A stretch of 64,000 bases of DNA, taken from the NCBI RefSeq assembly GCF_036059255.1, contig NZ_CP107947.1:496001-560000 (forward strand), in the 5' to 3' direction. Of the stretch, positions 3,824-55,330 are shown in pieces (the first letter of the stretch is position 1; the number at the start of each line of letters is the position of its first letter). Under the pieces are notes generated by a model. The model was not told the origin of the DNA and did not search any database. It saw nothing but the letters and a program-made list of their open reading frames with translations. Source of the stretch: Micromonospora sp. NBC_00389. Lineage in GTDB: Bacteria > Actinomycetota > Actinomycetes > Mycobacteriales > Micromonosporaceae. The translations under genes and the position numbers were made by a program.

Positions 3824-4859
3824 GGTTCACCAGCTCCTCGGCGAAGTGGCAGGCGCTGGCCCGGGCGTGACCCACCTGCAGCAGCGGCGGGACCTTCTCC
3901 CGGCACACCGGCTGAGCCATGGGGCAGCGCGGGTTGAACGGGCAGCCCGGCGGGATGTTCATCAGGTTCGGCGGAAGGCCCTTGATCGTCCGGAGCTGCT
4001 GCCCCTTCTCGTCCATCCGCGGGATGGAGTCGATCAGGCCCATCGTGTACGGGTGCGCCGGCTTGGCGTACAGGTCGTACACGTCGGCTTCCTCGACGAT
4101 CCGGCCCGCGTACATGACCGCGATCCGGTCCGCGACGTCGGCGACCACGCCGAGGTCGTGGGTGATCAGGATCATGCCCATCTGCCGCTCACGCTGGAGC
4201 TCGGCGAGCAGGTCCATGATCTGGGCCTGCACGGTCACGTCGAGCGCGGTGGTCGGCTCGTCCGCGATCAGCACCTCCGGGTCGAGCGCCAGCGACATCG
4301 CGATCATCGCGCGCTGCCGCATACCGCCGGAGAACTGGTGCGGATAGTTGTTGAACCGGCCCTTGGCGTTCGGGATCTTGACCTGGTCGAGCATCTCGAT
4401 CGCACGCTTCTTGGCGTCCGCGCGACCCATGCCCCGCCGGACCCGGAACTGCTCGGCGATCTGGAACCCGACGGTGAAGACCGGGTTCAGCGCGGAGAGC
4501 GCGTCCTGGAAGATCATCGCGATGCCCTCACCGCGAATGCGGCGCCGCTCCTCTTCGGACATGCGGAGCATGTCCTTGCCGTGGAAGCGGACCTGCCCGC
4601 CGGTGACGAACCCGGGCGGGGTGTCGAGGATGCCCATGATGGTCTGCGCCGTGACGCTCTTACCGGAGCCGGACTCGCCGAGCACGGCGAGGGTCTCCCC
4701 CGCGTCGACGTGGTACGTGACCCCGTTGATGACCTTGGCGACGCCGTCCCGGGTACGGAACTCCACCCGCAGGTCGTCGACCTCGAGCAGCCGGCCAGAG
4801 GGACGTCCGGACCCGCCGGTTCCCGGCGCGGACTGCTCGGACACGAGAATGTCGGACAA
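3816..4859 (-). CDS. Oligopeptide/dipeptide ABC transporter ATP-binding protein (OppD/DppD type)
   Basis: First ATPase of the importer, 347 aa. About 25 disordered residues come first, then the ABC domain: Walker A GESGSGKS, signature FSGGMRQRAM (the OppD-type GM variant), Walker B VLIADEPTTALD and H-loop ITHDLGVV. The C-terminal Cys-rich tail (CPFNPRC...C...ACHF) matches the oligo_HPY domain. It pairs with the downstream OppF-type ATPase to drive the two permeases. It begins 11 bp after the OppC-type gene ends, within the same minus-strand operon. Confidence 0.93.
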   Translation of the reverse strand: MSDILVSEQSAPGTGGSGRPSGRLLEVDDLRVEFRTRDGVAKVINGVTYHVDAGETLAVLGESGSGKSVTAQTIMGILDTPPGFVTGGQVRFHGKDMLRMSEEERRRIRGEGIAMIFQDALSALNPVFTVGFQIAEQFRVRRGMGRADAKKRAIEMLDQVKIPNAKGRFNNYPHQFSGGMRQRAMIAMSLALDPEVLIADEPTTALDVTVQAQIMDLLAELQRERQMGMILITHDLGVVADVADRIAVMYAGRIVEEADVYDLYAKPAHPYTMGLIDSIPRMDEKGQQLRTIKGLPPNLMNIPPGCPFNPRCPMAQPVCREKVPPLLQVGHARASACHFAEELVNRV

Positions 4860-51790: not shown

Positions 51791-52048
51791 TCAGCTGTGG
51801 GAGCTGACCCGCTTGATGTTGACCACACCCTCCTCGTCGAACACTTCGAGGATCTGGGTGGAGAAGCTACGCCGACCACGCCGGGTGAGGTCCACCCCGT
51901 CGTGGATCTTCACCCGGTCGGCGCCGTTGTGCTCGGCGAAGACGTCGACGGCCTGGCCGTTCCTGATGTCGGCACAGACCTTGACGGTCCGGGTGCCGTC
52001 GGCCTCCTCGTCCACAACGACGAGGCCCCGGTCGATGGGAAGTTTCAC
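51791..52048 (-). CDS. Small protein of unknown function at the end of the Mau-like operon
   Basis: 85 aa, soluble, mixed charge (VVVDEEADGTRTVKVCADI, LTRRGRRSFSTQILEVFDEEG). No signal peptide, membrane helix or known motif; a single Cys. GTG at 52048 with GAGGGG 7 nt upstream. It lies 73 bp after the Tat-exported Cys-rich gene on the same strand, so it may be its last cotranscribed gene or an independent neighbour. I do not recognise the family. The pattern of short beta-strands separated by turns suggests a small barrel. Confidence 0.7.
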   Translation of the reverse strand: MKLPIDRGLVVVDEEADGTRTVKVCADIRNGQAVDVFAEHNGADRVKIHDGVDLTRRGRRSFSTQILEVFDEEGVVNIKRVSSHS

Positions 52049-52121
52049 TGCACGACCCCTCTCTGGTCTCAGTGGCGGTGCTGGAATCTCGGACGTTGCT
52101 GGCTCTGTCGAGCGCGGACGA

Positions 52122-52445
52122 TCAGCCGTACTGGCAGGACGCGGCCGAAGCGACGGTCACGCCGCCGGACTTCTTCTCGCAGCACTGGCACCAGAGGAAG
52201 CCGCCGGAGGTCGTACACGACCAGGTGTAGTTCGTGGCCGCCCGGCACGAACTGAAACTGATGAACTTGCTGCTGGGCGGCGGGAAGACCAGGTTGCAGC
52301 ACTGGTAGTTGGCCGCCATCGCCGGCGTGGATCGGGCGAACACCGCGCCCGAGGTGACCAGGCCGATCGCGCCCAACTTGGCGAGGAACCCACGCCGGGT
52401 CCCGCCTCCACGAGACCGGGGGGCCTCGTGTTCGTCGTTGCTCAT
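52122..52445 (-). CDS. Tat-exported small Cys/Trp-rich protein (candidate MauA-like substrate)
   Basis: 107 aa. A twin-arginine signal (TRRGFLAKLGAIG, residues 16-28) ends at AMA near residue 44. The mature ~63 residues hold eight Cys (49, 50, 67, 77, 86, 88, 89, 104) and exactly two Trp (75, 85), each next to a Cys (WSC, LWCQCCE). Folded export of a disulphide-dense protein, made with a MauE-like and two MauD-like proteins, recalls the methylamine dehydrogenase light chain. That protein also has a Tat signal, six disulphides and two Trp that become tryptophan tryptophylquinone. The resemblance is of layout, not of alignable sequence, and no heavy chain or MauG is here. The ATG overlaps the previous stop by 4 bp. 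Confidence 0.82.
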   Translation of the reverse strand: MSNDEHEAPRSRGGGTRRGFLAKLGAIGLVTSGAVFARSTPAMAANYQCCNLVFPPPSSKFISFSSCRAATNYTWSCTTSGGFLWCQCCEKKSGGVTVASAASCQYG

Positions 52446-52984
52446 ACCGCCTCCTTCGTTGCCTGCACCGCGGCACGGACTGCCGCGACATCGGTGAACA
52501 ACAATGCGGAAACCAGCCGTCCGTCCTTGACGACCGCGGCGGACGGGCTGATCTTGACGCCGAACTCGGTGGAGACCCAGGCCGCGCCCTCGTCGATGAG
52601 GTACGGCAACCGGGCGAGGCCATGACGCTGGACGAACTCGACCGCGTCGCCGAACGTGGCAGAGGTGACGACGACACCGACATCGCCGGTGTCGGGTTGA
52701 TCAGCGAGCTGCGCCGCGACGTCCTCGCAGCTCGCACAACTCGTGCTGAGCACCAGGAGCAGGTACGGCCCGCCGGTGCCGAACCGGGCGAACGGCTCCG
52801 GCCACGTGCCCGGCCGGGAGCCGAACCGGGCGCCTTCAAGCGGTCGTACCCCGGTGCCGCCGGGGGTTGACTCGGGCGAGCCCTCCAGTCCGCCGGTCCG
52901 GGCGTACATCTCGCCGGCCATGGCGAACAGCAGCACGACGGCACCCGCCACGAGCAGCATCACGATGATGGTCAGGTAGTTCAT
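52442..52984 (-). CDS. MauD-like membrane-anchored thioredoxin-fold protein (copy 2)
   Basis: 180 aa. An N-terminal membrane helix (about 3-22), a Gly/Pro-rich linker, then a thioredoxin fold with the active-site CASC (Cys83, Cys86) in LLLVLSTSCASCEDV. A cis-Pro equivalent follows (KISPSAAVV), where TlpA/MauD proteins have ..PxxxV. It is a paralogue of the protein at 54111-54635. Active site outside the membrane; likely forms or isomerises disulphides in the Cys-rich protein encoded next, with which it overlaps by 4 bp. ATG at 52984 with AAGG upstream. Confidence 0.85.
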   Translation of the reverse strand: MNYLTIIVMLLVAGAVVLLFAMAGEMYARTGGLEGSPESTPGGTGVRPLEGARFGSRPGTWPEPFARFGTGGPYLLLVLSTSCASCEDVAAQLADQPDTGDVGVVVTSATFGDAVEFVQRHGLARLPYLIDEGAAWVSTEFGVKISPSAAVVKDGRLVSALLFTDVAAVRAAVQATKEAV

Positions 52985-52997
52985 CGAGGCCCTTCCT

Positions 52998-53426
52998 TCA
53001 TGCGGTCGAGGTGTCGGCCGGTCGTGGCTCGGGCTCGGGAGCCGGGGCCGGCGGATGCAGCGGCGAGGTGGCCCGGGTGGATCCGCCGAACATGACCCGC
53101 GTCCATTCGCCGGCGTAGCAGAAGACGCCGCAGGTGGTGGTGATGCCGAACCGGCCGGGGGCCCGCGACGCGCCCACGTGTCGTGGGATGCCGCCCATCG
53201 AGTAGACGCTGTCCAGGTCCTGCCAGAGCGAGATGCTGAGCACCACCCGCTGCCGCCAGTCGACCAGCACCTTGATGCCGAGGTATCCCTTGGCGGCCCG
53301 TCGGACGTGCCGTTTCAGGCGTAGGTGCAGCACCAGGATCAGCAGCACCTTGGGCCGGCTGCCGCAGTTGAACCGGGTCACCACGACCTGCCCCTTGGCG
53401 GGGTCCGGCTCCAGTACCGGGGTCAT
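52998..53426 (-). CDS. Alpha-beta barrel-like protein in the Mau-like operon
   Basis: 142 aa. The start is ATG at 53426, overlapping the preceding membrane-protein stop (ATGA). There is no signal peptide. The core VVLSISLWQDLDSVYSMGG followed by H and a G...TTTCGVFCYAGEW strand resembles dimeric alpha-beta barrel (ABM / CrtA-like) proteins, whose members bind haem or act as monooxygenases. This is a weak fold-level guess. Three Cys (in FNCG, TTCG and FCYAG) and two Trp in the core are notable. The C-terminal 25 residues are a Pro-rich tail. In the operon it could modify the small substrate protein. Confidence 0.65.
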   Translation of the reverse strand: MTPVLEPDPAKGQVVVTRFNCGSRPKVLLILVLHLRLKRHVRRAAKGYLGIKVLVDWRQRVVLSISLWQDLDSVYSMGGIPRHVGASRAPGRFGITTTCGVFCYAGEWTRVMFGGSTRATSPLHPPAPAPEPEPRPADTSTA

Positions 53427-53995
53427 GTCTGGACGACCGTCGCGACGAGGGACAGCGCGACGGCCAGGATCGTCACGCCTGAGACGCGCCGTGCCCGGAC
53501 CACCCATTTCCGACTCCTCTTCTCCGGTAGGTCGGCATACCTGGTGAGGCTCCACAGCGACACCAGCAGGCTGGCGACGAGGACGACGCAGAAGAGCACC
53601 AACGGCGCCGACCCGGCGTCCACCAGCAGGACGGCAGCGAGCGAGAGCCAGATCAGCGACACCGTCTTCTGTGTGGTGAAGAGCAGTCCCAGGTCAATGC
53701 CCCAGACCACGCCGAGCGTCCCGCCCGGCAGGGTGCGGACCAGCCGCTGCGGGACCTGCCGCCAGATGTGCGGGGTACGGTCGCGCACATCGGACACGCC
53801 CAGCCACCCGGCGACTGCCGCCAACAGCACCAGCCGTAGCCACTCGGGCAGCGCCTGCTGGAGCAGGGAGCCCGCGAAATACACCGGAACCGCGAGGATC
53901 ACACCGGCGATCAGCCCGCCGACCGCGAGGCCGACGAGGAACCGGACGCCCTCGAACGCGTTCCGCCGCAACATGGGACCGGCGACCCCGGCCAT
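53423..53995 (-). CDS. Polytopic membrane protein in the Mau-like operon
   Basis: 190 aa, five or six predicted membrane segments (about 17-40, 52-66, 92-115, 120-140, 145-160 and 170-190) with a basic loop PEKRSRKWVVRARR before the last. It has a single Cys, so it is not a CcdA/DsbD-type electron conduit. I find no transporter signature. ATG at 53995 with GAGG 7 nt upstream is preferred to a GTG two codons earlier. The stop overlaps the next gene. Its constant membrane topology inside a maturation operon suggests a scaffold or exporter, but nothing in the sequence proves it. Confidence 0.75.
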   Translation of the reverse strand: MAGVAGPMLRRNAFEGVRFLVGLAVGGLIAGVILAVPVYFAGSLLQQALPEWLRLVLLAAVAGWLGVSDVRDRTPHIWRQVPQRLVRTLPGGTLGVVWGIDLGLLFTTQKTVSLIWLSLAAVLLVDAGSAPLVLFCVVLVASLLVSLWSLTRYADLPEKRSRKWVVRARRVSGVTILAVALSLVATVVQT

Positions 53996-54004
53996 GGACA
54001 CGCC

Positions 54005-54064
54005 TCAAGGGCTGAGGGCCTGCAGCATGGCTCCGGTTATGCCGAGGACGACCCAGAGGACCAT
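54005..54064 (-). CDS. 19-residue hydrophobic micropeptide
   Basis: Short frame ATG (54064) to TGA (54005) in the gap between the thioredoxin-fold gene and the polytopic membrane gene. The excellent RBS GGAAGGAG lies 6 nt upstream. The product (MVLWVVLGITGAM then LQALSP) is one hydrophobic helix. Its stop lies 9 bp before the next start, as expected for a coupled gene. It could be a membrane micropeptide that assembles with its neighbours, or only a device for translational coupling. It is too short for gene callers. Confidence 0.5.
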   Translation of the reverse strand: MVLWVVLGITGAMLQALSP

Positions 54065-54110
54065 GGCGGACTCCTTCCCGGTTGGCGGCGGGTGCGACGG
54101 AGGGTTGGTC

Positions 54111-54635
54111 CTACACGCGCTGGCGGGTCGGCGAGACCGTCGACCGCAGCATGGTGAAGTCGGTGAACGCCAGGGCGGAGATCAGCATCCCGTCCCGGAA
54201 CACGAGGGCGGCCGGGCTGACCGCGATGCCGAACTCGCCGGCAACCCAGTCACCGCCCTCGTCGACGTGGTGCGGCAGCCTGGCCAGCCCGTTCGTGGCG
54301 ACGAACTCCGCTCCGGCGGCGGCATCCGCGGTGGAGACGGCTACGGCGATGTCCGCCACGTCGGCATGGTCGGCGAGTTGGCCGGCCACCGTACGGCAAC
54401 TGGAGCAGGCCGTGCTGAGCACCAGGACGATCCGTAGCGGCCCGTCGCCGAATCCGGCCAGACCGGCGGGCCAGGCGGCCGGCACCCGGCCGACGTGGGC
54501 CTCCTCCAGCAGTCGGATACCGCTGCCCTGGGTCGGGGTGACGCCCGCGCGGTCGGCGAGCTGACCGAGCATCGCGAAGAGGACCACCACGCCCCCGGCG
54601 AGGACCAGAAGGGCGATCCCGAACACGTACGTCAT
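54111..54635 (-). CDS. MauD-like membrane-anchored thioredoxin-fold protein (copy 1)
   Basis: 174 aa, the same plan as copy 2: membrane helix (3-22), linker with RLLEEAHVGRVPAAWPAGL, thioredoxin active site CSSC (Cys77, Cys80) in LVLSTACSSCRTV, and a cis-Pro region AVSPAALVF. ATG at 54635 with GAGGAG 6 nt upstream; the frame is open 18 codons further. It follows the MauE-like gene by 10 bp. In methylamine dehydrogenase operons MauE and MauD are both needed for light-chain folding; the same division of labour is inferred here, with two different MauD-like proteins perhaps giving oxidase and isomerase roles. Confidence 0.87.
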   Translation of the reverse strand: MTYVFGIALLVLAGGVVVLFAMLGQLADRAGVTPTQGSGIRLLEEAHVGRVPAAWPAGLAGFGDGPLRIVLVLSTACSSCRTVAGQLADHADVADIAVAVSTADAAAGAEFVATNGLARLPHHVDEGGDWVAGEFGIAVSPAALVFRDGMLISALAFTDFTMLRSTVSPTRQRV

Positions 54636-54645
54636 GGCGCACTCC

Positions 54646-55185
54646 TCAGTCGTGTGTGGCGGCCGTCGGCCGGGGGCGGACCAGCTCACGAACCATGTCC
54701 CGCCAGATCCAGACGGCGAGCAGCACCATCAGGCCGGCGACGCCGATCGGGAGCAGGTCGGGGCGGGGGACGGCGTCCGCGCCGCCGCGGAGCACGACGA
54801 GCGCCCCGGCACCGAGAGCGAGCCCGACGAGCACCGACCGGAGGCCCAGCGGGCGACTGTCGCGTTGCCCGAAGCAACCGCACGGCGTGGCGAGGCCGCG
54901 TGCCCGGCCGACCAGCCCGGCTCCGGCGAAGAGCAGGCCGAGCACGCCGGCGACCGCCGCTCCGGCGGTGCGCAGGTCGGGAACGATGAGGGCGATGCCG
55001 GTGAGCGTCTCCACCACGGCCAGCAGGCGTACCGCTCGCTGCGCGCTGGGCTCGGGCAGCCGGAGCAGCGCCGCTACCGCTGCCCGGCTCGCTTCGGGAG
55101 CCGCCAGCTTGCCGAGCCCGGCGGAGACGAAGACGGCGGTGGTTCCGCAGATGATCAGGCCCACAGCGAGGGCGGATCCGGTCAT
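54646..55185 (-). CDS. MauE/DoxX-like redox membrane protein
   Basis: 179 aa, four membrane segments. The diagnostic motif PCGCFG (Cys102, Cys104, with Gly after) lies between helices, as in MauE proteins, which pass electrons or oxidising equivalents to partner thioredoxin-like proteins across the membrane. N-terminal helix LIICGTTAVFVSAGLGKLA is typical of the family. First gene of the operon: ATG at 55185 with CGGAGC upstream, and a good promoter 110-150 bp away. The family assignment is firm; the partner and substrate are inferred from operon content. Confidence 0.9.
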   Translation of the reverse strand: MTGSALAVGLIICGTTAVFVSAGLGKLAAPEASRAAVAALLRLPEPSAQRAVRLLAVVETLTGIALIVPDLRTAGAAVAGVLGLLFAGAGLVGRARGLATPCGCFGQRDSRPLGLRSVLVGLALGAGALVVLRGGADAVPRPDLLPIGVAGLMVLLAVWIWRDMVRELVRPRPTAATHD

Positions 55186-55301
55186 GCTCCGCTCACCCGT
55201 GTCCGGGCATAGGTCATCGACACCGCGCCACCCCCGTGTTGACCGGCCTTCCCCCTGAGGGATTCACATTCGCCGATCGATCGTCGCTCTGCGAGACCCA
55301 A

Positions 55302-55330
55302 TTCTTACGGTGCGCATCGATGAGCGTCAA
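55302..55330 (-). promoter_or_regulatory. Promoter of the Mau-like operon
   Basis: On the minus strand TTGACG (55325-55330), 17 bp, TAAGAA (55302-55307), followed by a leader of about 110 nt to the MauE-like ATG. This is the clearest sigma-70-like promoter of the accessory regions. Confidence 0.7.

Follow-up and report, generated by a model that had tools for sequence, protein, structure and literature searches.

The light chain of methylamine dehydrogenase carries two conserved Trp residues and 12 Cys residues. Methylamine metabolism in Paracoccus requires both MauE and MauD, and a role in forming the disulphides of the light chain has been proposed for MauE (PMC7794033). A catalogue of 2026 lists 119 prokaryotic selenoprotein families (PMC13188914). 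Here we analyzed a window of 64,000 nt (the whole stretch of DNA under study; Micromonospora sp. NBC_00389, contig NZ_CP107947.1, positions 496,001 to 560,000) and describe an operon on its minus strand at 51791-55185. The operon shares with the mau set of Paracoccus a MauE-family membrane protein, a membrane thioredoxin-like partner, and a Cys-rich client with a signal of the twin-arginine translocation (Tat) type (in part PMC7794033). Judged from sequence comparison, it also encodes a membrane selenoprotein, likely of a new family, and appears to form a redox system dependent on selenium that has not been described.

In-frame UGA in the membrane-protein gene

A sequence-only reading of the window had counted a micropeptide and a polytopic membrane protein as separate genes. 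We found that the micropeptide (54008-54064), MVLWVVLGITGAMLQALSP, is followed by TGA and GVSMAGVAGPM... in the same frame as the membrane protein (53423-53995), and that a single TGA separates the two open reading frames (ORFs). AAGGAG is located 6 nt upstream of the ATG at 54064. The two ORFs are almost certainly one selenoprotein gene that had been split, and its UGA is very probably decoded as selenocysteine (Sec, U). The gene and its signals are as follows.

53423-54064, minus strand: predicted selenoprotein gene, 213 aa, Sec20, S-P-U-G-x-S motif; the former micropeptide and membrane protein joined
54005-54007, minus strand: in-frame TGA, read here as selenocysteine; TGA in 19/19 loci and in four divergent loci
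53977-53993, minus strand: hairpin of the selenocysteine insertion sequence (SECIS) type, 6-bp stem, 5-nt loop, 17 nt past the UGA; pairing kept across loci

The 19 loci are the window, L036-L051, L063, and L083. Across the UGA, the motif L-Q-x-x-S-P-U-G-x-S is kept in all of them. The codons upstream of the UGA differ chiefly at the third position, with mean pairwise differences of 0.25, 0.24, and 0.48. In the interval from the TGA to the next ATG, GGN-NNN-TCN, the GG and TC columns are invariant, with differences of 0.53 and 0.57 at the corresponding third positions. Conserved coding is thus present on both sides of the in-frame UGA, as in bacterial selenoproteins. No Cys version of the Sec site was found among 23 loci (the 19 together with L084, L098, L099, and L100).

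Sec20 is the sole Sec and lies at the end of the first hydrophobic segment. The membrane protein has no invariant Cys, and besides Met, Sec20 is its only invariant chalcogen residue. The probable partner of Sec20 would therefore be a Cys of another protein. In NCBIfam 20, the selenoprotein of the window had no match up to E = 1, and none of four relatives was near a cut-off. On the Streptomyces plasmid that carries the set, the annotated gene comprises only the part of the selenoprotein past the UGA.

We also scanned the DNA of 286 genomes of the class for the pattern. Four matches were obtained, of which those in G000 and G317 are real. The match in G455 was rejected because of further in-frame stops in the printed match. 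The match in G483 (C23:39626-39654, L092) reads QLQCP-TGA-GCS and is possibly due to chance.

Hairpin downstream of the UGA

The region past the UGA was aligned in 19 rows (alignment A6; 18 distinct, with related rows counted more than once). All cells in stem columns 30-35 and 41-46 were paired (108/108), whereas control stems slid along the alignment were paired at 16-65%. Compensatory double changes were present at three of the six stem pairs (C-G/U-A and G-C/A-U), and some of the stem changes are constrained by coding. The bacterial SECIS (bSECIS) model calls for a stem of 4-16 bp, a loop of 3-9 nt, G in the first two loop positions, and a distance of 16-37 nt after the UGA (PMC13188914). 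The hairpin agrees with this model in all 19 loci (6 bp, 5 nt, G as the first or second loop base, 17 nt). Minimum-energy folds of 42 nt from the 19 loci ranged from -10.4 to -23.1 kcal/mol. Rfam gave no match for the hairpin region at E ≤ 1.

Gene set and its distribution

The other genes of the operon are listed below; they are spaced compactly, overlapping by 4 nt or separated by 10-73 nt.

54646-55185, minus strand: MauE-like membrane protein, 179 aa, PCGCFG; PF07291 match; present in 19/19 loci
54111-54635, minus strand: MauD-like membrane-anchored thioredoxin-like protein 1, 174 aa, CSSC; CxxC alignment, weak PDB profile matches
52998-53426, minus strand: 142-aa protein, weakly like an ABM/af470 monooxygenase fold; present in 19/19 loci; alternative upstream start possible at 53507
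52442-52984, minus strand: MauD-like protein 2, 180 aa, CASC; 46% identical to MauD-like protein 1
52122-52445, minus strand: Cys-rich protein with a Tat signal, 107 aa, eight Cys in the mature part, likely client; RR signal and Cys pattern
51791-52048, minus strand: 85-aa protein, last gene of the set; present in 19/19 loci

The sequence-only reading was borne out in part. The MauE-like protein with PCGCFG matched PF07291 at E = 1.1e-17 (65 bits against a cut-off of 27) and was the sole operon protein with a family match above the cut-off in Pfam and NCBIfam. The two thioredoxin-like proteins with CSSC and CASC have an N-terminal membrane anchor, and both Cys residues of the CxxC motif are invariant in alignment A2 (18/18). 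The PDB profile matches of MauD-like protein 1 to thioredoxins and TlpA are weak. The MauD model TIGR02661 did not match either MauD-like protein of the window; it gave E = 0.038 for one Streptomyces-type protein. Also confirmed was the 107-aa protein, which has eight Cys and an RR signal of the Tat type. The reading had noted the lack of a heavy chain and MauG, and neither is among the conserved genes.

The 142-aa protein had weak Pfam matches (E = 0.015-0.067) in one or two of 14 members, and a PDB profile match (E = 0.06) was judged to be chance. The 85-aa protein had no family match in Pfam or NCBIfam; it was detected in 14 loci with the window's query and in five with the proteins of relatives.

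Six genes (MauE, MauD-like, Tat, membrane, 142-aa, and 85-aa) recur as a unit in the 19 loci, and this recurrence exceeds chance. The hosts belong to Micromonosporaceae and one other family, and one locus is on a Streptomyces plasmid. Two MauD-like genes are present only in the window, L036, and L037. The closest named relatives of the Tat protein are those of Micromonospora costi (93% identical) and M. rubida (86% identical).

A single Tat protein query matched 26 of 250 Micromonosporaceae genomes at E ≤ 0.01, 14 of them at E < 5e-6; the 12 weak matches, G017 among them, were left out before counting. None of the operon genes was found at the weak match in G017 (L052). The membrane-protein profile matched 15 of the 250 genomes, namely the same 14 and, weakly, G240. 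Thus, 14 of the 15 genomes with the membrane gene also carry the 107-aa family, and the fifteenth has a divergent Tat protein with 11 Cys. This co-occurrence and the Cys pattern support the earlier idea of a MauE/MauD-type set with a Tat-exported Cys-rich client, which had missed the selenocysteine.

At the class level, the Tat profile matched seven of 246 genomes (two full-length, in the window's own genome and G317, and five partial), and the membrane profile matched two of 296, the same pair. In the family of G317, one of eight genomes had a match, G317 itself. The search of plasmids with the membrane profile returned one Streptomyces record, the S. anthocyanicus plasmid carrying the gene set (L083/L101), and no viral contig had a match to this profile.

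Divergent versions of the operon

G240 (L084) carries MauE, a MauD-like protein, the 11-Cys Tat protein, and a membrane protein reading FSP-TGA-GVSFVG. The 11-Cys client gene (L084, 5040-5432) ends with Cys-TGA. A second type, reading SLSGSV-TGA-TRNSA, is present in three of 169 genomes of genus g65, probably Streptomyces (L098, L099, and L100). In these three loci, no ATG, GTG, or TTG occurs within 21 codons past the UGA (the first is codon 22 or 25), and a hairpin is located further downstream. The MauE of L099 passes the Pfam cut-off, and its MauD-like gene was named from CRTC and position.

The Tat proteins of L098 (7872-8792, minus strand) and L099 (6399-7322, plus strand) are 306 and 307 aa long and each combine a 12-Cys domain with two peptidoglycan-binding domains, which suggests a wall-bound product; their genes neighbour redox genes and a selenoprotein gene of the same kind. 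The 142-aa and 85-aa genes gave no tblastn match in L084, L098, or L099. Both are therefore probably accessory, and the core set probably consists of MauE, the MauD-like protein, the selenoprotein, and the Tat-exported Cys-rich client.

Genes for selenocysteine incorporation

In the S. anthocyanicus plasmid, tRNA-Sec, selA, selB, and selD adjoin the operon. All four components lie about 4 kb from the operon in G714 (L098), 0.7 kb in G697 (L099), and about 10 kb in G240 (L084/L102). Formate dehydrogenase gave no tblastn match in the operon-plus-sel stretches of L083/L101, L098, L099, and L084/L102. All four components were also found in G317 (L104), together with a formate dehydrogenase fragment, and in G055 (L105), with no formate dehydrogenase match; G122 (L106) has selA and selB near tRNA-Sec. 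The complete machinery was thus detected in L098, L099, L101, L102, L104, and L105, and tRNA-Sec, selA, and selB in the window's own genome. In this genome and in G223, G035, and G002, tRNA-Sec lies near formate dehydrogenase genes. The own cluster, at about 5.658-5.666 Mb (L085, 3071-11309), comprises formate dehydrogenase alpha and beta, tRNA-Sec, selA, and selB.

Counted by hand at E < 1e-10, tRNA-Sec is present in 164 of 250 family genomes and in 14 of 15 carriers of the operon (hypergeometric p = 0.014, ignoring kinship). In genus g65, none of six non-carriers had tRNA-Sec above the cut-off, and the three carriers scored 70-74 bits.

The Tat-exported Cys-rich protein

R17, R18, A42, and A44 are invariant (18/18), giving the RR, hydrophobic stretch, and AxA of a Tat substrate; a Tat profile remained below its cut-off (13.2 of 16.7 bits). 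In an alignment of 21 homologues, from which L084, L098, and L099 were omitted as too divergent, W75, Y73, C49, C50, C67, C77, C88, C89, and E90 are invariant. The same three related sequences have Tyr in place of both C86 and C104. The number of Cys is even (8, 10, 12, or 14) in 23 of 24 homologues. Because of the even number and the joint loss of C86 and C104, the client is probably disulphide-bonded, and C86-C104 is a predicted disulphide pair. A PDB profile match of the Tat family to DMBT1 (E = 0.04) was judged to be chance. L048 (9173-9454 and 10164-10469) and L050 (8581-8874 and 7572-7874) each carry two divergent client genes per operon.

A light-chain-like Cys-rich ORF with a Tat-like leader, unannotated, was seen on Thermomicrobium roseum plasmid NC_011961 (L112, about 4001-4300), adjoining an annotated MauE/DoxX protein. 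No dehydrogenase is named among the seven genes shown there.

Proposed function

The selenoprotein gene is co-inherited with those of MauE, a MauD-like thioredoxin, and the Cys-rich client. The operon likely encodes a thiol-redox pathway that acts outside the cytoplasm and serves a single Tat-exported Cys-rich protein, and dedicated redox maturation of this client is likewise likely. The MauD-like protein supplies CxxC, and MauE supplies PCGCFG. Most likely, by analogy with membrane electron transfer by CcdA/DsbD and TlpA, the selenoprotein would exchange electrons with the MauD-like protein across the membrane, in either direction. In a short-lived intermediate, Sec would be joined as a selenenyl-sulphide to a Cys of MauE or of the MauD-like protein, which would enable the MauD-like CxxC to introduce or rearrange the client's four to seven disulphides on the outer side of the membrane. 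To a fuller scheme we give an even chance: a membrane selenoprotein of an undescribed family, MauE, and the MauD-like protein may form or proofread the disulphides of Tat clients in a selenium-dependent manner, and it may be this system, rather than formate dehydrogenase, that retains the sel machinery in one plasmid and some Streptomyces-type genomes.

Several observations weigh against selenium-dependent redox maturation or parts of it. The AlphaFold models of the selenoprotein and the client, from an input alignment of the window and two relatives, were poor (mean pLDDT, predicted local distance difference test, 50 and 49), and no fold backs a CcdA-like selenoprotein. hhalign gave 6% probability for the selenoprotein against three CcdA-like sequences, and Pfam SfLAP matched two of 17 selenoprotein members (best E = 3.8e-4). 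PF02683 (CcdA/DsbD) matched none of the 17, and a pair of transmembrane Cys was not found; a CcdA-like fold is only a lead. In L040, L044, and L047 (3/19), the minimum-energy fold favours another pairing. L084 has no conserved stem and fits bSECIS only via an unconserved hairpin; it has no conserved ATG, yet its TGA is followed in frame by GTG (codon 2) and ATG (codon 7), and its client has 11 Cys. The MauE and MauD-like genes of L098 and L099 were not matched by tblastn with the proteins of other loci. As for the sel genes, selD was unmatched within 17 kb around the own selA and selB and was not sought elsewhere, tblastn matched no sel gene around tRNA-Sec of G058 (L087), selA was unmatched in L088 and L089, and the carrier G025 (80% complete) had no tRNA-Sec above the cut-off.

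Separately, PF02683 was matched at E ≤ 1e-10 in none of nine genomes, the own genome and eight of the same genus, of which only the own genome is a known carrier of the selenoprotein.

Alternative explanations

An ATG lies 9 nt past the TGA in all 19 loci, with GAGG 7 nt before it, so that the locus could contain two genes, a 19-aa micropeptide ending at the TGA and a membrane protein whose ribosome-binding site is TGAGG. A ribosome-binding role of GAGG is insufficient as an explanation since TCN is conserved: G-x-S between TGA and ATG is kept in codon phase. The double changes of the hairpin preserve pairing, three divergent homologues lack any start codon in the 21 codons past the TGA, and sel genes adjoin or are near the operon in distant genomes. 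We consider two genes very improbable, and selenocysteine decoding is preferred. Equally improbable is the proposal of the sequence-only reading that the client, like the methylamine dehydrogenase light chain, contains a cofactor derived from Trp or made by Trp crosslinking. MauE is common to the mau set, and one part of the expected conservation did hold, as W75, near C77, is invariant in 21/21; W85, however, is Trp in only 4/21, and the client has eight Cys against the 12 of the light chain. hhalign of the client against five light chains of the methylamine/aralkylamine dehydrogenase type gave 0.3% probability (7.3% for the Streptomyces-type domain), PF02975 did not match the client, and Me-amine-dh_L was above its cut-off in none of 119 genomes of the phylum, including the own genome, and below it in two.

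The client may instead be a secreted disulphide-rich antimicrobial peptide or a ribosomally synthesized and post-translationally modified peptide (RiPP) matured by the redox genes. MauE/MauD clusters whose precursors have at least eight Cys have been termed candidate RiPPs (PMC7794033), and L048 and L050 contain two divergent client copies. On the other hand, no conserved gene resembles a protease, exporter, or immunity gene, with no search made beyond the set; export is through a Tat-type signal, and the two peptidoglycan-binding domains of the Streptomyces-type client suggest a wall protein. We regard a RiPP as unlikely but conceivable, and it is compatible with, not exclusive of, a redox pathway. 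Less probable still is a selenoprotein that handles peroxide, metal, or selenium beside a Cys-rich protein that binds metal instead of forming disulphides. Tat often exports cofactor-loaded proteins. U-G-x-S resembles U-x-x-T of glutathione peroxidase-like selenoproteins (PMC13188914). The even Cys number in 23/24 homologues and the paired loss fit disulphides better, and the client matched no metal-protein family in Pfam. Redox maturation of a disulphide-bonded client remains the preferred explanation.

Comparison with known systems

The operon likely provides a new selenoprotein family, one that annotation truncates, and connects selenocysteine with the maturation of extracellular proteins. 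With it, one can ask by genetic means why a small Tat client would depend on selenium for its oxidative folding. The operon may also explain why selenocysteine genes are present in actinobacterial loci where no formate dehydrogenase was found alongside.

In the open-access literature, no paper linking MauE with selenoproteins was among the matches listed. In the table of the 119-row catalogue, no row names MauE or the SPUGxS motif, and some rows give no motif (PMC13188914). None of nine new selenoprotein families, as named in the report on them, matches by name (PMC12013277). The catalogued proteins, such as the TsoB rhodanese/DsbD fusion-like protein and YeeE/YedE with GUxSG, share with ours Sec, a bSECIS-type element, and, in some cases, a role as membrane thiol/sulphur proteins (PMC13188914). 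With CcdA/DsbD, the likeness is that S-P-C at the end of the first transmembrane segment aligns with S-P-U in a single hhalign alignment, whereas the probability of 6%, the lack of a second conserved Cys, and the lack of a Pfam DsbD match in 17 members set the two apart. The candidate RiPP clusters of Streptomyces found by decRiPPter share mauE, in one family also mauD, and a precursor with at least eight Cys; the parts of the report describing them mention no selenium or membrane partner, a distinction by description and not by sequence (PMC7794033). Compared with the mau set, the operon adds the selenoprotein and the 142-aa and 85-aa proteins and has no heavy chain or MauG among its conserved genes; its client is unmatched to MauA, and the MauD-like proteins of the window are unmatched to the MauD model.

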